Origin: a bacterium
GTDB taxonomy: Bacteria; UBA9089; CG2-30-40-21; SBAY01
Direction: 5' to 3'
Length of the DNA stretch: 9,579 nucleotides
Assembly (NCBI GenBank): GCA_040757115.1
Contig: JBFLYA010000143.1
Coordinates: 1-9,579, forward strand
The position numbers and the translations under genes were made by a program. Positions 2,649 through 9,579 of the stretch are shown here, piece by piece. The notes under the pieces were generated by a model that saw only the letters and a program-made list of their open reading frames with translations, did not search any database and was not told the DNA's origin. Position 1 is the stretch's first letter. Each line of letters starts with the position of its first letter.

Positions 2649-2752
2649 TCTTCACTCCTTAGTTGTAACCGTTCAGGGATATAACCACAGAGTCACAGAG
2701 AACACAGAGGGAATATATAACCACGAATGAACACGGATAATAAAAAGATTCG

Positions 2753-2900
2753 ACCTGTGCGGTTAAATGTAAAATGGATAACTGAAAGGTAATGAGTTTT
2801 GCGAAGTCCTAAAATTTCCCATTTTTCATTTCCTATTTTACATTTTACATTTATTTTTCCTTTGCGTCTCTGCGATGAATTAGTCTAATCGCACAGGTGG
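2753..2900. repeat. ~150-bp inverted-end intergenic element, copy 2 (complete)
   Basis: It runs from ACCTGTGCGGTTA (2753-2765) to TAATCGCACAGGT (2886-2898), inverted ends matching at 12 of 13 bases. The interior matches 1-158, including the heptamer run CATTTTT, CATTTCC, TATTTTA, CATTTTA. It is nested inside a spacer element that lacks it in the other copy, which suggests a discrete insertion. No target duplication can be read with confidence. Confidence 0.8.
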
Positions 2901-2908
2901 GAAAGATT

Positions 2909-2973
2909 TGTAGTGCGAGGCTTTAGCCTCGCTTCTGGCAAGCAGGAAAGCGAACCTAAAGGTTCGCACTACA
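2909..2973. repeat. 65-bp twin-hairpin element, copy 2
   Basis: Perfect 10-bp terminal inverted repeats TGTAGTGCGA / TCGCACTACA. Internal palindromes are GCGAGGCTTTAGCCTCGC and GCGAACCTAAAGGTTCGC, both perfect here. The length equals copy 1 (1016-1080); differences lie in the linker and stems, and one stem change in copy 1 weakens pairing. Confidence 0.85.
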
Positions 2974-3057
2974 TTTATCGAATGGCACAGGTTAATTCGT
3001 GTCCATTTGTGGCTAATTTCTCTAATTCTCTGTGAACTCTGTGCCTCTGTGGCTGAA

Positions 3058-4080
3058 TTAAGGAAATTTACTTAATTTTATTTTATTTTTAATCCCTGGC
3101 GAAACCATTATTCCAGAATCTGAGACAATAATGCCTTCCACTGTGTCTAATTTTTCAATCAATTCCATTCCTGCTTTCTCACCTAAGACAAATACTGCGG
3201 TAGAAAGAATATCCGCAATCATTGCCGACGGCGTGATTATCGTCACACTTATGCATAGATTTGCTGGATAGCCGCTTTTGGGGTCAATGATATGATGGTA
3301 TCTTCTGCCCTTGTCGATAAAGAAGTGTTCGTAATCACCTGATGTCGCCACAGCCATATTTTTTAGAGGAAAAGCACCTAAAATTTCATTTGCTTTGCGT
3401 GGATGCTGAATTCCAATCTGCCAGAGTTTTCCATAAGGATTTTTACCAATAGCCTTAATGTTTCTCCCAATATCCACCAAGGCATCTTTAATTCCAGCCG
3501 ATTCAATAATGTCAATTGCTTCTTCTACGGCATAGCCTTTGGCTACACCGCCTAAATCTATTTTCATCCCTTCAAGTCCTAAAACAACCTCCCGATTTCG
3601 CGGGTTTAATTTCACCTGCCGATAATCAACCAATATTGCCTTTTGGGCAATTTTATCTCGTGTCGGAACTATCCCTTTATCTTCTCTGAATCCCCATAAT
3701 TCTGTAACCGGTCCAATCGTTACATCAAACGCACCAGTGCTTAAATTAGAATAGGCTACGGACTTTTCCAGAACATAAAAAAGGTCTTTACTAACCTTCA
3801 TCTTTTTATTACGGTTAAGAATGGATAACTCACTCTCAGGATTGTGACTTGACATTTTATCTTCAATCTCTTTAATCCGTTCAAAACATCTTTTAATCGT
3901 TCCTTCTGCACGGAGCGGGTCATCATCTATTACCTTAATTTCAGCGATTGTGCCCATTACCACTTGAGTTTTAGAGAAAAGTTGCTTTTTCTCCCCACAA
4001 CCTGAACTGAAAGTAAGAAGTAAAATAAATCCAATATTCAACAGCCAAAATCCAAAATTTTTTTTACAATCCCACGCCAT
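3058..4080 (-). CDS. apbE: FAD:protein FMN transferase, lipoprotein (ApbE family)
   Basis: 340 residues, the usual ApbE length. It transfers FMN from FAD to Thr/Ser of target proteins such as Rnf/Nqr subunits and FMN-binding-domain proteins, outside the cytoplasmic membrane. The N-terminus has a hydrophobic segment ending in SSGC (C28), a lipobox. Family motifs seen: DLGGVAKGYA (175-184), ATSGDY (245-250), HHIIDPKSGYP (262-272) and ADILSTA with the Mg2+-binding D290 and T294. The usual GG(D/N) motif near 205 reads GRN (R206), an unusual replacement. The start ATG at 4080 overlaps the end of the upstream radical SAM gene by 17 nt. Its site AGGAGGTGATTT-ATG lies inside that gene, so translation is likely coupled. 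No target flavoprotein is in the window. Confidence 0.95.
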   Translation of the reverse strand: MAWDCKKNFGFWLLNIGFILLLTFSSGCGEKKQLFSKTQVVMGTIAEIKVIDDDPLRAEGTIKRCFERIKEIEDKMSSHNPESELSILNRNKKMKVSKDLFYVLEKSVAYSNLSTGAFDVTIGPVTELWGFREDKGIVPTRDKIAQKAILVDYRQVKLNPRNREVVLGLEGMKIDLGGVAKGYAVEEAIDIIESAGIKDALVDIGRNIKAIGKNPYGKLWQIGIQHPRKANEILGAFPLKNMAVATSGDYEHFFIDKGRRYHHIIDPKSGYPANLCISVTIITPSAMIADILSTAVFVLGEKAGMELIEKLDTVEGIIVSDSGIMVSPGIKNKIKLSKFP

Positions 4081-5062
4081 AAATCACCTCCTGACAATAT
4101 TCACATTTACCATTTTTTATCTTATACTCGGTCAATGAATATCCCTCTCGAATAATCAGTTTTTTCTTACAATTAGGACAAAAGGTAGTGTTTGTATCTA
4201 TATCCCAGATATTTCCCAGATAGACATATTTTAATTTTAAAATAGCAATCTCGTAAGCCTTTTTCAGGGTTGATACTGGTGTAGGCGGAAGAGTCATTTT
4301 ATATTGTGGGTAATATTTTGAAAAATGAGTCGGCGTATCATCCCCTAATTCATTTGCTATCCAGTTCACTAATTCCTGTAATATTTCTTCGTTATCATTT
4401 AAAGTAGGAATAATCAAGTTGGTGACTTCGACCAATTTACCTTTTTCTCTCGATAATTTAGCGGTATTTAGAACAGGGGATAGTTCTCCTTTGGAATATT
4501 TCGTATAAAACTTTGGTTCAAAAGATTTTATATCAATATTAAGGGCATCAATATAAGGTAATAATTCTAACAACGGTTCAGGATTAACAGAGCCGTTAGT
4601 GACCAGAACATTGGTTAATTCCTGTTCTTTAGCTAATTTAGCTGTTTCTAAGACATATTCGAACCAGATGAATGGTTCAGTATAGGTATAGGAAATGCCA
4701 CTGGACTTTTCTTCTTTTGCCAGTATAACTGCCTGGTGAGGGCTAAGTTTTTGAGTTTTTGCATCTATGTTTTGTGAGATATGCCAATTCTGGCAAAAAT
4801 CACAGGCAAAATTACATCCAACTGTGCCTAATGAAAGGATTTCACTGCCTGGATAAAAATGGTAGAGTGGTTTTTTTTCAATCGGGTCCATTGCAATTGC
4901 AGAGCATTCTTCGTAGATTTTAGAATAAAGCGTGCCCTCAAGATTTATCCTGACCCGACAAAAACCTACCTTGCCTTGCCCAATAATGCACATTTTGGGA
5001 CATAAAAGGCATTTAACCTTGTTATTCTCCTCTAATTTTTCGTAGTATAAAGCTTGTTTCAT
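4064..5062 (-). CDS. amrS: AmmeMemoRadiSam-system radical SAM enzyme
   Basis: 332-residue cytosolic radical SAM protein. The cluster motif C83-x3-C87-x2-C90 followed by QNW, the preceding C18-x2-C21-x3-C25 and C35 region, the SYTYTEPFIWFEY segment (124-136), and HFSKYYPQYKM (246-256) are the AmrS/PflA-like hallmarks. A C-terminal C295-x2-C298 and C320-x2-C323 pair forms a zinc-ribbon-like tail. The partner families AMMECR1 and Memo are not in this window. The biochemical role of the trio is not settled. It starts 2 nt after the stop of the glycosyltransferase gene (TAA-TT-ATG) and overlaps apbE at its 3' end, so it is the middle gene of a three-gene operon. Confidence 0.92.
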   Translation of the reverse strand: MKQALYYEKLEENNKVKCLLCPKMCIIGQGKVGFCRVRINLEGTLYSKIYEECSAIAMDPIEKKPLYHFYPGSEILSLGTVGCNFACDFCQNWHISQNIDAKTQKLSPHQAVILAKEEKSSGISYTYTEPFIWFEYVLETAKLAKEQELTNVLVTNGSVNPEPLLELLPYIDALNIDIKSFEPKFYTKYSKGELSPVLNTAKLSREKGKLVEVTNLIIPTLNDNEEILQELVNWIANELGDDTPTHFSKYYPQYKMTLPPTPVSTLKKAYEIAILKLKYVYLGNIWDIDTNTTFCPNCKKKLIIREGYSLTEYKIKNGKCEYCQEVIYGVGL

Positions 5063-5064
5063 AA

Positions 5065-6912
5065 TTACATTTCACCAGGAAGTTTTTCTTTTAATTCTAA
5101 CTGAACCAGATACTCACCTTTTATCTTCTCAAAGTTAACTCCGTCGTTTGAAAAATAACTTCGACCAAAATTATAATAATTATCAATCAATATTTGAACA
5201 TTGGCTAATTCAGTTACTTTAAAGATAATTGTATTTTTGCCATTTTTTAAAAGGGAAGGTTTTATGTCAATACTTGCCGTTCTTGTAAAATTACCATAGG
5301 TAATATAGGCACAACTAATTTTAGGTAGGTCATAGCCATTGACATTTATTAGCAACTCTCCTTTATCATTTGCCGAGTAATAAATTCCTAATCCAGCGGT
5401 TTTAACCTTAGATAAATCGCAATTAACCACAAGTTCCTTTTTAATAGTCTTATTCGGAGAATCGAGTATTCCTGTTTTATCTCCATGCCAATCGCCGCTG
5501 TTATCACGAATGACATATCCATATCGTTTCTCAATACAAAATCCATCTGGATGAGTTAGCGGATATGTCCAACCTAAAAAGGTATTAAAATTAACCAGCG
5601 AGTAAATGAGACAAAAGATGATAAAAGAGATAATTACTGGTTTATATTTTTTCTGCTGAATATGATGATACCAAAAATAAAGAGTATAACCAGAAAAAAT
5701 AATCAAATAAGGAACGAATGGCACACGAAACCTTGCCATAACAAAAAATAACAAAATAGCACTCATATATCCAATCATTACTAAAACTAAAAGCAAGATA
5801 TTTTTATTTAACCTCCGTAGAGACAGACAAATTCCCATTATTCCCAGTGAGGCAACAAGTCCGAATTGTAACATCAATTTTAATAGCGGGACAGATTTTT
5901 CAAATCGTGAATAAACAATATCATTATCAGGAATCTCATATCCACTCCAGAATATTGTCCATTTTTTATATAAAAGCCAGAGGTATTTATGGGGTTTTTC
6001 TTTTATAAACCTGACCGCATCCCGCATCCAGAAGCCCTCATCATCTTTACCCTTTAGATTATCCGCATACGGCGGAATGTAATATATCCCTTCTGAATCC
6101 TCATTATTCCCAGCCCAGAAGGTTACCGGTCCTGACTGAGTTAAAAGGATAAATTTGCCACTATAAATATAATTACGGATAGTCACCGGCGAAATGGCAA
6201 GTGCGGTTCCTAAGAGAATAAAGAAAGAGGCGATTAAAAATCTCTTTTTTAAGCCAAAAACAACCAATACCCATAACAATAAAAAAGGTAAGACGAAAAG
6301 TGTTGTTGCCCTTGATAAAGCAGAAAGGCCTATCACGATTCCTGTTATCAGATACCATTTTATCGAATTCTTTTCCACACTCTTTAAAAGGAGAAATGAA
6401 CTCAAGAACAGGGTAAATGTATCTAATACCGGTGTCAGGATAGTGGTTTCATAGACCATAAAGATACCATAAAATGTACATAACAAAAGGGCAATTAATC
6501 CAACCGTTTGATTAAAGATGCGTGTCCCCACTAAATACACCAGGAAATAACTCCCGCAACCAACAAATATCTGGAATATTACTGCTCTAAAAGGCTCAGT
6601 GCCAACAATCAAATATACCAGGGCTAAGAAATAATAATATAAAGGGTTAAATGAATAAGGGGATTTAGGCAATTCACCATTTAATAGCAGTCTGGCTAAT
6701 CCGTCATACGAACCTGCATCTGTGCCTTCAAAATGTAAAAAATTTGGGTCATTACTCTTTACCTGAAAAAGATAAATCAATCTTAAAATAATAGCCGCCA
6801 CAAGGAGACAGATAAGAATAATTTTATCCTTCGAGATGGAGAGTGGGAAAGATGAAGGCTTGCGGTAATTTTTAGACGGATGTTCTTTTTTCTTTTTAGA
6901 CTTTTTTTTCAT
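5065..6912 (-). CDS. GT39/ArnT-like integral membrane glycosyltransferase with C-terminal soluble domain
   Basis: 615 residues. A very basic N-terminus (MKKKSKKKKE) precedes about ten or more transmembrane segments (roughly residues 31-440). The first extracytoplasmic loop has TDAGSYDGLARLLLNGE (D65, D70), the catalytic-Asp region of GT39/PMT-type enzymes using polyprenyl-linked sugars, followed by NPLYYYFLALVY. LSRATTLFVLP and ISPVTIRNYIYSG are also typical of the family. The last ~150 residues are soluble and beta-rich, possibly a carbohydrate-binding-like domain. The acceptor and sugar are unknown. It is the first gene of the operon with the radical SAM enzyme and apbE. No ribosome site precedes the ATG. 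Instead the -10 box lies 6 nt upstream, suggesting a leaderless message. No alternative in-frame ATG lies near. Confidence 0.88.
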   Translation of the reverse strand: MKKKSKKKKEHPSKNYRKPSSFPLSISKDKIILICLLVAAIILRLIYLFQVKSNDPNFLHFEGTDAGSYDGLARLLLNGELPKSPYSFNPLYYYFLALVYLIVGTEPFRAVIFQIFVGCGSYFLVYLVGTRIFNQTVGLIALLLCTFYGIFMVYETTILTPVLDTFTLFLSSFLLLKSVEKNSIKWYLITGIVIGLSALSRATTLFVLPFLLLWVLVVFGLKKRFLIASFFILLGTALAISPVTIRNYIYSGKFILLTQSGPVTFWAGNNEDSEGIYYIPPYADNLKGKDDEGFWMRDAVRFIKEKPHKYLWLLYKKWTIFWSGYEIPDNDIVYSRFEKSVPLLKLMLQFGLVASLGIMGICLSLRRLNKNILLLVLVMIGYMSAILLFFVMARFRVPFVPYLIIFSGYTLYFWYHHIQQKKYKPVIISFIIFCLIYSLVNFNTFLGWTYPLTHPDGFCIEKRYGYVIRDNSGDWHGDKTGILDSPNKTIKKELVVNCDLSKVKTAGLGIYYSANDKGELLINVNGYDLPKISCAYITYGNFTRTASIDIKPSLLKNGKNTIIFKVTELANVQILIDNYYNFGRSYFSNDGVNFEKIKGEYLVQLELKEKLPGEM

Positions 6913-6918
6913 ATTGAC

Positions 6919-6947
6919 ATTATAGCATCTCTGAATAGTTATGTCAA
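6919..6947 (-). promoter_or_regulatory. consensus sigma70-type promoter predicting a leaderless mRNA
   Basis: Minus strand: -35 TTGACA (6947-6942), a spacer of exactly 17 nt, and -10 TATAAT (6924-6919), both perfect consensus. Only six bases (GTCAAT) separate the -10 from the ATG at 6912, so transcription should begin at about the A of the start codon. In addition, 8-bp arms ATTGACAT (6913-6920) and ATGTCAAT (6941-6948) form a perfect inverted repeat spanning the promoter, a possible operator. Confidence 0.8.
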
Positions 6948-6958
6948 TAAAAATAAAG

Positions 6959-7121: not shown

Positions 7122-7223
7122 TTTCTCCTGAAAATAGGAAGTAGAAAGTAGAAAGTAAAGAAAACATCACTCCTCACGCCTATCTCCTTACCTCCCACCT
7201 TCTATCTCCTACCCCTATTTTCA
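7122..7223. repeat. heptamer inverted-repeat element, copy 2, fused to the nucleotidyltransferase gene end
   Basis: It begins with TTTCTCCTGAAAATAGG, as at 346. Heptamers follow at 7134-7161 (ATAGGAA, GTAGAAA, GTAGAAA, GTAAAGA), then a short gap, then pyrimidine heptamers at 7179-7220 (CCTATCT, CCTTACC, TCCCACC, TTCTATC, TCCTACC, CCTATTT). The inverted ends TGAAAATAGG (7129-7138) and CCTATTTTCA (7214-7223) are perfect. The last three bases supply the stop codon of the neighbouring nucleotidyltransferase gene. Confidence 0.75.
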
Positions 7224-7481
7224 TCCTCCTCGTATATTTTTAATGCCTTCTTTCGTTAGTACATCAACCTTTTTTCCAAATAAGTTTTCAAGATATTCCA
7301 CAAATCTAATAAATTTGAACCCTATTGGTTGCTTGAATTCAACAACTATATCTAAATCACTATCCTTTGTCAGAGTCCCAGTTACCACTGAGCCAAAAAT
7401 ACCGATTTTGGAAACACCATATTCAGTCGCTAAAACATTATAATATTTCCTTATTAAATGTGTCACTTCTTTTTTATCCAT
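7221..7481 (-). CDS. MntA-type minimal nucleotidyltransferase, C-terminus apparently replaced
   Basis: 86 residues. It is a minimal Pol-beta-superfamily nucleotidyltransferase like the MNT antitoxins of HEPN-MNT modules. IGIFGSVVTG (27-35) gives the GS motif, SDLDIVVEF (41-49) gives D42 and D44, and VDVLT gives the third acidic residue D73, so the active site is complete. Family members usually continue for about 10-15 residues after KEGIKNIR with a short helix. Here the protein ends R-G-G-stop, inside the right end of a heptamer repeat, so the tail seems lost. The ATG at 7481 lies 26 nt after a GTTAGCC attC core (7514-7508), preceded by an AAAGGA site, consistent with a gene-cassette start. 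No HEPN partner is adjacent. Confidence 0.8.
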   Translation of the reverse strand: MDKKEVTHLIRKYYNVLATEYGVSKIGIFGSVVTGTLTKDSDLDIVVEFKQPIGFKFIRFVEYLENLFGKKVDVLTKEGIKNIRGG

Positions 7482-7507: not shown

Positions 7508-7638
7508 GGCTAACGATAAAGTTCAGGTGCGGCGGGGAGAATTACCACAAAAGTTTGATAGCAAGATAAAACTTTGAGAGACCACAAAACTCTAATTACG
7601 GCACAGCCCCCACCGTCAACTGCAACGCAGGGTTAGAC
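7508..7638 (-). other. attC recombination site (integron gene-cassette type)
   Basis: Minus strand: R'' GTCTAAC (7638-7632) and R' GTTAGCC (7514-7508) bound a 131-bp imperfect palindrome. After 5-nt spacers the inner arms align as GTTGCAGTTGACGGTGGGG against, read inward from the other end, AGTTCAGGTGCGGCGGGG. These match apart from single extra bases (G and A in one arm) and a few changes. Unpaired single bases in one arm are the hallmark extrahelical bases of attC. The exchange point would be G|TTAGCC. It precedes the nucleotidyltransferase gene and follows a micro-ORF whose stop lies in R''. Confidence 0.82.
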
Positions 7639-7695
7639 AAAAGCTCTCATTCGCTGTCTTTTCCTTTTCCTCTGCCTCACCGAATTATTGTGCAT
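7633..7695 (-). CDS. very small basic ORF in a ~120-bp cassette (doubtful)
   Basis: 20 residues, MHNNSVRQRKRKRQRMRAFV, strongly basic. The TAA stop falls inside the attC core GTCTAAC, a usual placement in cassettes. The frame stays open further upstream to the previous core site, but there is no ATG/GTG/TTG nearer to the strong AAGGAGGG site at about 7728-7734. Only an ATT (7722) lies at suitable spacing, giving 29 codons. Either a rare start is used or the cassette is noncoding. The call rests on position and composition only. Confidence 0.3.
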   Translation of the reverse strand: MHNNSVRQRKRKRQRMRAFV

Positions 7696-7744
7696 TCCAC
7701 ATTCACGGTTTGCCCCTAAAATATCTCCCTCCTTTTTATATTTT

Positions 7745-7763
7745 GCCTAACAATTTGTTAGAC
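7745..7763 (-). other. collapsed attC-like site: two core motifs 5 bp apart
   Basis: Minus strand GTCTAACAAATTGTTAGGC. Both ends fit the attC cores (RYYYAAC and GTTRRRY), and the central 15 bases form a perfect palindrome. The inner L arms found in true attC sites are missing. It lies where an attC is expected, between the cassette gene 7834-8214 and the micro-cassette. It could be a deletion product or a site built from core ends only. Confidence 0.55.
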
Positions 7764-7770
7764 ATCAAAT

Positions 7771-7815
7771 AGGGGAAATGTCCCTCTATTTCCCCTTTAT
7801 TTCCACTCTATTTCC
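7771..7815. repeat. 9-bp hairpin plus three 11-bp direct repeats
   Basis: AGGGGAAAT (7771-7779) and ATTTCCCCT (7788-7796) are a perfect inverted pair with an 8-nt loop. Overlapping this, three 11-mers follow: CCTCTATTTCC, CCTTTATTTCC, ACTCTATTTCC (7783-7815). It lies downstream of the membrane-protein gene and could stabilise or end its transcript; no T-run is evident. Confidence 0.65.
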
Positions 7816-7822
7816 TCAGTCA

Positions 7823-7849
7823 GGCAAAAGATTTTAATCTTTGCTTGCC
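7823..7849 (-). promoter_or_regulatory. stem-loop overlapping the stop codon of the cassette membrane protein
   Basis: GGCAA-AAGATT-TT-AATCTT-TGC-TTGCC on the plus strand: 5- and 6-bp stems with a small asymmetry. The stop codon sits in the loop. Without a T-run it is not a standard terminator. Confidence 0.45.
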
Positions 7850-8214
7850 ACATAAGCACCAAAGATTATGGCTCCAATTACGAGGATGTCCAAACCGATC
7901 AAGAGTAACAAGTAAGTTGTGTCAAGATCAGAAGGATACAGAAGCCAGCCAGTGAGAGAAAGGCCGCCAATAAGAATAGCCAAAGTTGTAAGAGCAAAAA
8001 AAAGGACAGTCTTATTGACTTCTTTAAACATCTTGCTTGTAAGGTAGACAGACAAGCATGCGGCGATAAAGCTGCCTATGGCTCTGCCTATATTAGGCCC
8101 TGCAGCTACCCATTCCCCGTGTATTGACTCTCTTGCCTCAAAAATATTTGCCAACAAGAACCACGAAGGCAAGAAGAAGATATATAGCACTATAACAGCG
8201 AAAACATTCTTCAT
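7834..8214 (-). CDS. small four-helix membrane protein, cassette-borne, unknown function
   Basis: 126 residues with four hydrophobic segments, at roughly 3-25, 44-60, 68-92 and 98-122. Short polar loops include FEARESIHGEWVAAGPNIG between helices 1 and 2. There is no motif I can assign. The start ATG at 8214 is preceded by AGGAG 9 nt upstream, and this ribosome site overlaps an attC-core-like GTTAGGA (8231-8225). The gene is tandem with the DUF6804-like gene (36 bp gap), in the same orientation. Its base composition is visibly richer in G+C than the backbone genes, as expected for an acquired cassette. I do not recognise the family. Confidence 0.7.
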   Translation of the reverse strand: MKNVFAVIVLYIFFLPSWFLLANIFEARESIHGEWVAAGPNIGRAIGSFIAACLSVYLTSKMFKEVNKTVLFFALTTLAILIGGLSLTGWLLYPSDLDTTYLLLLIGLDILVIGAIIFGAYVASKD

Positions 8215-8224
8215 GTTTTGTTAC

Positions 8225-8256
8225 TCCTAACGGTGCGGAGCAGGAACGAGTTATTG
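8225..8256 (-). other. attC remnant between two cassette genes
   Basis: Minus strand: a poor left core CAATAAC (8256-8250, containing the TAA stop of the preceding gene), then CGTTCCTGCTCCGCACC, then GTTAGGA (8231-8225). The distance is far too short for a full attC and the last base of the right core is off-consensus. The placement between tandem small genes suggests a deleted site. Confidence 0.35.
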
Positions 8257-8604
8257 CGATTGCGAGTTGTCTACATCCGTCTTGTTTGCCGAATCTTTCC
8301 TTGCATGCTTCACTTTCAGAACGAAAATAGATACCATCGCCACTACGATTGTGGCAACATTGACAACTGACCATATTTCCCTTGTGAGGTGAACTCGGAT
8401 GATTGGGTTATATATCACCGCAGTAACGCCAAGAACCCACACCACACCTTGCTTCTCTTGGGCAAGTGACTGAATGGCGAGGTAAGCAAAGATGGCACAA
8501 CACACCCACCGCAGAAGGATGTAGTATCCGTAGGGGTTCTCTGGGTTGAGCGCCCACAGCAGCATTGCGCTTGAAATGACTTGGGGTATCCAGATTCGTT
8601 TCAT
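8251..8604 (-). CDS. DUF6804-like small membrane protein, cassette-borne
   Basis: 117 residues, three to four transmembrane helices and a polar, charged C-terminus (KHARKDSANKTDVDNSQSQ). The pattern NPENPYGYYILLRWVCC ... VVWVLGVTAVIYNPIIRVHLTREIW is what I recall for the DUF6804 family of small proteins common in cassette arrays; the match is from memory. Function is unknown. I start at the ATG at 8604, with GAGG 5 nt upstream. That site directly follows an attC core GTTAGAC (8620-8614), a typical cassette gene start. A longer frame from 8643 would begin inside the attC and has no ribosome site. The gene is G+C richer than the backbone. Confidence 0.75.
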   Translation of the reverse strand: MKRIWIPQVISSAMLLWALNPENPYGYYILLRWVCCAIFAYLAIQSLAQEKQGVVWVLGVTAVIYNPIIRVHLTREIWSVVNVATIVVAMVSIFVLKVKHARKDSANKTDVDNSQSQ

Positions 8605-8613
8605 GTTTTCCTC

Positions 8614-8700
8614 GTCTAACGTTTTGCGTAACCGGCTCTGCAAAAAGCAGAGTGAGGAACGAACGCCAACGCCACTTTTGCCGTCCGTGTGGACGCAATT
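8614..8700 (-). other. attC site, interrupted at its outer end
   Basis: Minus strand: R' GTTAGAC (8620-8614) is preceded by the arm GCCGGTTACGCAAAAC. The other arm is TTGCGTCCACACGGACGGC at about 8698-8680. TTGCGT pairs with ACGCAA, and a CGG core follows after a small bulge. A perfect inner hairpin, CTCTGC-AAAAA-GCAGAG (plus strand 8635-8651), lies beside one arm. The expected R'' core (RYYYAAC) beyond 8700 is missing; the sequence becomes A/T-rich there, where the IS110-like segment begins. Confidence 0.65.
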
Positions 8701-8719
8701 GATAATAATTAAAAGGCAC

Positions 8720-8748
8720 TTGAAATCGATCGTACAGTATGATATAAT
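8720..8748 (+). promoter_or_regulatory. strong sigma70-type promoter with extended -10
   Basis: -35 TTGAAA (8720-8725), a 17-nt spacer ending in TGA (extended -10 TGn), and -10 TATAAT (8743-8748). The predicted start is near 8755. It reads into the structured noncoding region, not directly into a gene. Confidence 0.75.
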
Positions 8749-8754
8749 ACCAAT

Positions 8755-8930
8755 GAGTTTATCGCTTTAACCACACCTGGATATATATGGGAAACATTAA
8801 TGGCTTAACCTTCTCCTCTGAGAGGCTAAATAACCTTCAGAGGCATACATATCCAGTATGTGGCCTGGAAGGCGCTCGGGTTGCTCTCCAGCATTGCCCT
8901 ATCCTCCTCCCAGGGGAGAAAGTTAAGAGT
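8755..8930 (+). ncRNA. candidate IS110 bridge RNA (structured noncoding region)
   Basis: A closing stem pairs CTTAACCTTCT (8804-8814) with AGAAAGTTAAG (8917-8927), 10 of 11. Inside it are three hairpins. The first is CCTCTGA-g-AGG with CCT-TCAGAGG (8815-8825/8834-8843), 10 bp with one bulge. The second is CATAC-ATATCCA-GTATG (8844-8860). The third is CTGGA with TCCAG (8865-8869/8887-8891). Separately CACACCTGGATATATATG (8772-8789) is an imperfect inverse of 8844-8862. Size and place, between a promoter and the transposase, fit an IS110-group bridge RNA. The identity of the guide loops is not established. Confidence 0.55.
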
Positions 8931-9122
8931 GTAACCATAGATTCTATTTATATTATAGCCTTTTCTTTAGCTTGCGTCAAGAATTATTTTCATAGGCATC
9001 AGACTTATTTACCTTTTCTAACACAAAAATTGTGGAGGAACATATCTCTTATGTCCCTCTTTAAGGTCGATTTAGAAAATTGACCAATAAATCAAAATTT
9101 ATTAGTATTAAGGAGGCCCATC

Positions 9123-9323
9123 ATGAAATATCTTGCTTTAGACGCTCATAGCAACTTTTGTTCATTTGGTGTCCTTTCTGAGGACAATAAGATTCTTACC
9201 TGCATCGATATTGAAACAAGTGAGATGAATCTGATTAATGCAATCCAAAGTGTTTCTGGAACCAAAACACTCGTAGTAGAAGAATCACCATTAGCCCATT
9301 GGAGGTATGTGCGAATTTTATGA
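9123..9323 (+). pseudogene. IS110-family transposase, truncated N-terminal fragment
   Basis: 66 codons, against roughly 300-400 for the family. MKYLALDAHS (D7) and KTLVVEES (E53) are the first two acidic residues of the RuvC-like DEDD domain of IS110 transposases. The match holds to about LAHW (residue 60). After that the reading frame drifts through RYVRIL to a stop, and no continuation of the DEDD domain or of the C-terminal Tnp2 domain follows. AAGGAGG lies 6 nt before the ATG, so the start is sound. The break at about 9302 marks a deletion or a later insertion. It cannot be active alone. Confidence 0.75.
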
Positions 9324-9348
9324 AGATAAAAAAGAAGTAAAGAAAAAC

Positions 9349-9416
9349 GGCTAACATTCCGAAATACAATATGAGAAGTAAAAATTATATTGTATTAAAA
9401 GGAGGATATGTTAGCT
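9349..9416 (+). promoter_or_regulatory. nested inverted repeats upstream of the last gene
   Basis: Outer arms CTAACAT (9351-9357) and ATGTTAG (9408-9414); inner arms AATACAATAT (9363-9372) and ATATTGTATT (9387-9396), all perfect. The AAGGAGG ribosome site (9399-9405) lies between the right inner and outer arms, so folding could mask or expose it. The layout also recalls an attC (GGCTAAC to GTTAGCT), but the two spacers differ in length. A 15-codon frame ending in the left core (9307-9354) is not clearly a gene. Confidence 0.5.
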
Positions 9417-9579
9417 ATGTATATTATCGGCAATTTGGTGGAAGAAATTAAAGTTCAAGATGAAGTTAAGGTAGCATATTGTACTAAATGTGGATCGACT
9501 TTTGTTGGAGAGAACAGAATCTATACACGGAATGTCAAACAAGGCAAATTCCAGGGTGGAGAAATAGCAAAAGAGGAGG
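9417..9579 (+). CDS. unknown small protein with CxxC, N-terminal part (runs off window)
   Basis: At least 54 residues: it starts MYIIGNLVEEIKVQDEVKVA, then YCTKCGSTFVGENR with one CxxC pair (about residues 22-25), then basic and polar residues up to the window edge. A single CxxC in a short strand-rich context suggests half of a zinc-ribbon or rubredoxin-like knuckle, but the second half is not seen. The ATG at 9417 is 11 nt after AAGGAGG; an in-frame ATG at 9408 is only 2 nt from it and less likely. It lies on the opposite strand to the backbone genes and just beyond a truncated IS. I do not recognise the family. Confidence 0.55.
   Translation, partial: MYIIGNLVEEIKVQDEVKVAYCTKCGSTFVGENRIYTRNVKQGKFQGGEIAKEE

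Follow-up and report, generated by a model that had tools for sequence, protein, structure and literature searches.

A probable detached part of a large chromosomal integron network, with an amplified ORF-less attC cassette

The window analysed here is the whole of contig C143 (9,579 bp), from a genome of 4.3 Mb in 462 contigs. Followed leftward along the minus strand, it begins with the start of a DDE insertion sequence (IS) and the remnant of an IS110-family element, and then has a probable attC of another type, a DUF6804 gene, a weak site and a gene for a 126-aa protein. Further leftward lie a collapsed attC, an ORF-less cassette with a full attC, a gene for an MNT-type nucleotidyltransferase and the backbone (Table 1). 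The 126-aa ORF and the DUF6804 gene are thus small, co-oriented genes between sites. An earlier note on this DNA had described core motifs alternating with four short, co-oriented ORFs; the alternation was confirmed, with the ORFs on the minus strand, and their number came down to three, the third being the MNT gene, which lies downstream and has no attC after it.

Table 1. Features of the window (positions in contig C143)
Feature	Positions	Strand	Remarks
MNT-type nucleotidyltransferase gene	7221..7481	-	PF01909, E 1.7e-14; after the last attC, none behind the gene
Full attC, 131 bp (GTCTAAC ... GTTAGCC)	7508..7638	-	Textbook plan, with R'' (GTCTAAC) on the right and R' (GTTAGCC) at 7508-7514
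Short ORF-less cassette (the unit), about 235 bp	7508..7744	-	Consists of a purine-rich tract and the attC; about 48 distinct copies genome-wide
REP-like left end of the unit (GGAGATATTTTAGGGGCAAACCGTGAATGTGGAATGCAC)	7690..7729	-	Fixed left boundary in many copies; core common to REPIN pairs
Collapsed attC, R'' and R' only (GTCTAACAAATTGTTAGGC)	7745..7763	-	Hairpin lost; 9.7 bits against model R1
Cassette ORF, 126 aa	7834..8214	-	Probable small membrane protein, no family
Possible remnant between the two cassette genes	8225..8256	-	Neither folds nor matches the model; overlaps the stop codon of DUF6804
DUF6804 cassette gene, 117 aa	8251..8604	-	PF20619, E 7e-25
Probable attC of a different type	8613..8700	-	R' at 8614-8620; R'' missing; interrupted by the IS110-family element where R'' meets L''
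IS110-family element with its noncoding left end and the beginning of the transposase gene (9123-9303)	8700..9304	+	89% identical to C231, 94% to C329
Start of a second IS (ISL3/Mutator-like DDE)	9301..9579	+	Cuts the IS110 gene; strong hairpin 9350-9416; 95% identical to G001 C48

Two of the three genes have relatives in other cassette arrays. A DUF6804 homologue (68% at the amino acid level) lies in the array of the intI-bearing integron of Candidatus Scalindua, and MNT genes occur in two further cassette contigs of the same genome (C98 and C283). The Scalindua homologue answers the concern, raised in the earlier note, that relatives of the small ORFs might never occur in cassette arrays. 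No homologue of the 126-aa ORF was found in other arrays, and among plasmids DUF6804 gave distant matches only. On the other side of the genes, the copy of the IS110-family element in C329 has a longer open frame, and the assignment to IS110 was made by reading that frame. In C231, an attC is interrupted at the corresponding position by the same left end, so that two insertions at the R''/L'' border are known in all. In genome G001 (contig C48), an ISL3/Mutator-like transposase ORF follows the region matching the start of the second IS. The hairpin at 9345-9420 is very stable (z -5 to -6, both strands), and its GCTAAC/GTTAGC ends mimic an attC. As the hairpin is conserved in G001 C48 upstream of a gene of the second IS, it is probably an IS leader rather than an attC.

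The full attC was characterized by comparison with its relatives in the genome, of which array contigs and a selection of loci were read in detail. Its arms pair around GGGG/CCCC, and at least 40 copies are present in the same genome, mostly 92 to 96% identical. RNAalifold applied to 33 such attC sites from the genome gave a 21-pair stem, with two-sided changes in five pairs. A covariance model (R1) trained on the alignment of these sites matched 7508-7638 on the minus strand with 143 bits (E 3e-40), the sole strong match in the window. The DNA fold of this site alone was not significant (z -0.8), and the covariance model was needed. Genome-wide, R1 detected at least 138 sites at E ≤ 1, at least 131 of them at E ≤ 1e-3, spread over about 40 contigs. 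Among the sampled genomes, it matched 15 of the 19 from the same phylum, versus none of the 22 from outside it. A lineage-specific attC family and many cassettes, the marks of a sedentary chromosomal integron, are thus both present.

Within the window, a single site has the R''/L''/L'/R' fold in full; the remaining sites are decayed or of another type. One cassette gene family carries a full attC in C231 and a collapsed one in C93, where the hairpin was lost at a short ATCG/CCG match, and we therefore read the site at 7745-7763 as a deletion product. A pattern search for collapsed sites returned few matches, close to the control. The region 8613-8700 folds significantly (z -2.7) and is not matched by R1; it is probably an attC of a different type that lost its R'' to the IS110-family insertion.

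A genome-wide search for intI, as the earlier note had advised, recovered one apparently intact integrase gene and several broken ones. The predicted IntI of contig C39, judged intact from its full-length open frame, has 460 aa, scores 372 bits against TIGR02249 and has an N-terminal extension of about 140 aa. The cassettes of C39 point away from it, in divergent orientation. Its relatives, at 58 to 83% identity, come from Nitrospirae, Brocadiales, Deltaproteobacteria and others, and span several phyla. Other contigs gave at least 11 weaker or partial IntI-like matches, several of them split or with stop codons. Some of the weaker matches could be other tyrosine recombinases, and some of the broken copies could be assembly errors, given the fragmentation into 462 contigs. 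The intact gene and the several broken copies noted are distributed over contigs C39, C30, C63, C118, C114, C324, C154 and C116; in C118, cassettes of the same direction flank the broken intI on both sides. An attI-like sequence beside the IntI gene of C39 is followed by one cassette there and by a long ORF-less cassette in C14. Such differing cassettes are as predicted if IntI inserts them at attI.

These data allowed us to weigh what kind of locus the window represents. The core motifs that had drawn attention to it do occur where they were described (GTTAGAC at 7632, GCCTAAC at 7745, GTTAGAC at 7757 and GTCTAAC at 8614), except at 7508, where GGCTAAC does not satisfy the strict motif. As evidence they are weak, because RYYYAAC and GTTRRRY together occur 22 times on the plus strand of the window versus 21.9 expected in shuffles, so that core pairs alone are at chance level. 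Even so, it is extremely improbable that in this AT-rich genome all the motifs arose by chance: the strength of the R1 match and the many genomic copies refute this for 7508-7638. They do not refute it for the weak core pair at 8225-8256, which has no match to the attC model. The model check that the earlier note had proposed thus succeeded at 7508-7638 and failed, with the genome-trained model, at 8613-8700, and one minus-strand site passed where at least two had been hoped for. The note had also named the region a CALIN without integrase. Like a CALIN (PMC9024848), it is a cluster of cassette sites on a contig lacking intI; its sites are decayed, and backbone genes stand on one side. Yet intI would be expected upstream of the outermost site, and just there, after 880 bp and amid nested insertion sequences, the contig ends (position 9579). 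Because it stops on that side, the absence of intI from the window contig proves nothing, and the term is not claimable here. The authors of IntegronFinder themselves caution that CALINs are overstated in draft genomes (PMC9024848), and the default threshold is two attC sites, compared with one passing the genome-trained model here, close to a contig edge and with intI elsewhere in the genome. An old, independent array that lost its own integrase and has no relation to the genome's other integrons appears improbable to us, since the window attC belongs to a family of about 131 sites in the same genome and the ORF-less cassette, which matches dozens of copies at up to 97% identity, must have arrived recently. 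Instead, the region is very likely a small, detached part of a large integron network of the chromosome. Its kind is ordinary; what is unusual is the amplified cassette, which would act as an attC donor. The attC family and the order, orientation and cassette boundaries demonstrate, at the level of sequence, an array of the sort that IntI would build on the minus strand, with the chemistry deduced from them. An integron cassette array in a small phylum, with sites in differing states of decay, is therefore supported as first proposed, and its proof comes from the genome rather than from motifs in the window.

The ORF-less cassette, hereafter the unit, stands out by its copy number. The count came to 48 distinct copies here and, in the examined part of a sister species, to at least 30; a second count gave 47 matches here and 46 in the sister, the latter figure including attC-only matches. 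The part at 7639-7744 contains no ORF beyond about 20 aa, and the 20-aa frame (MHNNSVRQRKRKRQRMRAFV) is broken by an indel in at least one copy. Homology between copies reaches about 100 bp upstream of R'', and from the ACCGTGAATG start to the GTTAG of R' nearly all copies measure 200 to 202 nt. A longer ORF-less cassette includes 12 of the copies here and 6 in the sister, and most of the remaining copies follow unrelated genes. The left boundary is fixed and the flanks differ. Directly upstream of the unit lies a truncated attC in five copies and a collapsed attC in two, one of which is that of the window; identical flanks with and without the unit were also found between the two species. On the grounds of these varied left flanks, junctions with truncated or collapsed attCs and matching flanks with and without the unit, we propose that the ORF-less cassette supplies fresh attCs to other genes. 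A single copy at 92% identity in G014, a genome of another family, suggests horizontal transfer.

At its left end (GGGGAGATATTAGGGTCAAACC), the unit is similar to inverted REP pairs at other places in the genome, of which one lies beside a Y1/RAYT transposase gene. This resemblance, the fixed left end with variable flanks and the insertions in attC arms would be expected if the unit were mainly a REP/RAYT-type mobile element that carries an attC by chance, with IntI minor in its spread. We hold this to be rather unlikely: the right end is always the R' of an attC with the next cassette following, the long form is a whole cassette that is also found directly behind an attI copy, and no unit was noticed to have the rest of an interrupted attC on its right side. 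The variety of left ends might also have arisen without any special element, purely by deletions between ordinary cassettes and the neighbours upstream of them. Three observations make this a real possibility, though short of likely: attC arms and GGGGGAGAT share G-rich microhomology, several left ends carry short duplications, and the arrangement in G001 C97 is derivable from a C5-like one by one deletion. Against it, dozens of copies in two species combine a fixed right endpoint with left endpoints that vary, which is more than random deletion predicts. A further proposal, which we put forward tentatively and with considerable doubt, is that the amplified REP-attC unit acts as a cassette-making element and, by landing behind genes or in old attCs, creates new mobile cassettes.

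In the overall reading of the region that we hold to be very likely, IntI-type recombination at folded attC sites assembled the minus-strand array, which then decayed. One attC lost its hairpin, probably by microhomology deletion, and another, probably of a different type, its R'' to an IS110-family insertion, which a second IS then cut. The intact attC is part of the ORF-less cassette that was amplified to about 48 copies. IntI would move this cassette, the long form of which lies directly behind one attI copy, and a second putative process would connect other genes, or truncated attCs, with the REP-like left end. Genes joined in this way would then belong to a larger cassette with a fresh attC at its end. 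This joining may be due to REP/RAYT-type transposition or to adjacent deletion ending at the left boundary of the unit. The expected joints are G|TT if IntI acted and GGGGAGAT inside attC arms if the second process did. It is an open question how genes gain an attC and thereby turn into cassettes, and the REP-attC unit, if true, would be a proposed answer to cassette birth. With dozens of attC-unit copies joined to different genes, the two sister species offer natural before/after pairs with readable junctions.

The system shares several traits with the sedentary chromosomal integrons of Vibrio (the superintegron) and Xanthomonas: many cassettes, a lineage-specific attC family, one intact IntI, an attI, and small cassette genes that include toxin-antitoxin and MNT genes. 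It differs from them in its spread over about 40 contigs, its several broken IntI copies, the presence of cassettes among backbone genes, its small phylum and the conservation between copies of about 100 bp upstream of the attC. An integron system thus extends across a phylum that is small and poorly known, and many of its cassettes lie apart from any complete platform. Gene-less cassettes of Vibrionaceae (PMC11014356) and of an oral metagenome (PMC6557892) are likewise short and without an ORF; compared with the available parts of these accounts, the present unit differs by its roughly 48 near-identical copies per genome, its REP-like left end and the many different genes that precede it. The IS1111-attC group (Tetu and Holmes 2008; Post and Hall 2009; both as cited in PMC11187229) places an IS at the end of an attC. 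Our two insertions resemble it, as far as the citing text describes the group, in having an IS of the IS110/IS1111 superfamily at one attC end; unlike it, the left-end noncoding region lies before the transposase gene, in the IS110 style.

Comparison with the sister species placed the array in its genomic setting. Over 2853-6953, the backbone of the sister matches that of the window at 97% identity; beyond this stretch it has thi4- and fdhD-like genes (named by reading the sequence) and no cassettes, and the array is therefore lineage-specific at this locus. The alignment here showed divergence and no clean empty site. In C34, a HicAB-like gene pair with an attC precedes lepA (names again by reading), has G|TT at both borders and is common to the sister; C5 has borders of the same kind. 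These borders fit cassette insertion at non-classical sites. Such lone backbone cassettes with G|TT borders recall attG-mediated genomic insertion (Loot et al. 2024, as summarized in PMC11023631), from which our case differs in that the search for empty sites recovered none. Among the seven loci for which empty sites were sought in the sister (C34, C15, C5, C38, C96, C247 and C209), C34 was common to both species, and none of the other six yielded a pair that could be used.

Several other repeats and mobile elements were observed along the way. In C7 (L148 2227-2286), a REPIN, GGGGTCAAACCTTGATTAT...ATAATCAAGGTTTGACCCC, lies near a Y1/RAYT gene. A copy related to the dispersed MITE-like repeat described below, with ends GTAAGCGTTCAG/CTGAACGCTTAC, sits inside the purine tract of the unit in G001 C97, with an apparent short target duplication. 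The cassette contig C205 (L122 1804-5139) contains a frame of 1111 aa whose C-terminal end carries a fused IS200-type Y1 transposase domain. A search of the window against Rfam yielded only sub-threshold matches, mostly to eukaryotic families; a false miRNA match among them falls on 351-432, an inverted repeat of the dispersed AGGCTGAAGG kind. Finally, a MITE-like dispersed repeat with ends GTAACYGTTCAG/CTGAACGGTTAC is present at 927-1170 and 2665-3055 of the window and in many other intergenic places.
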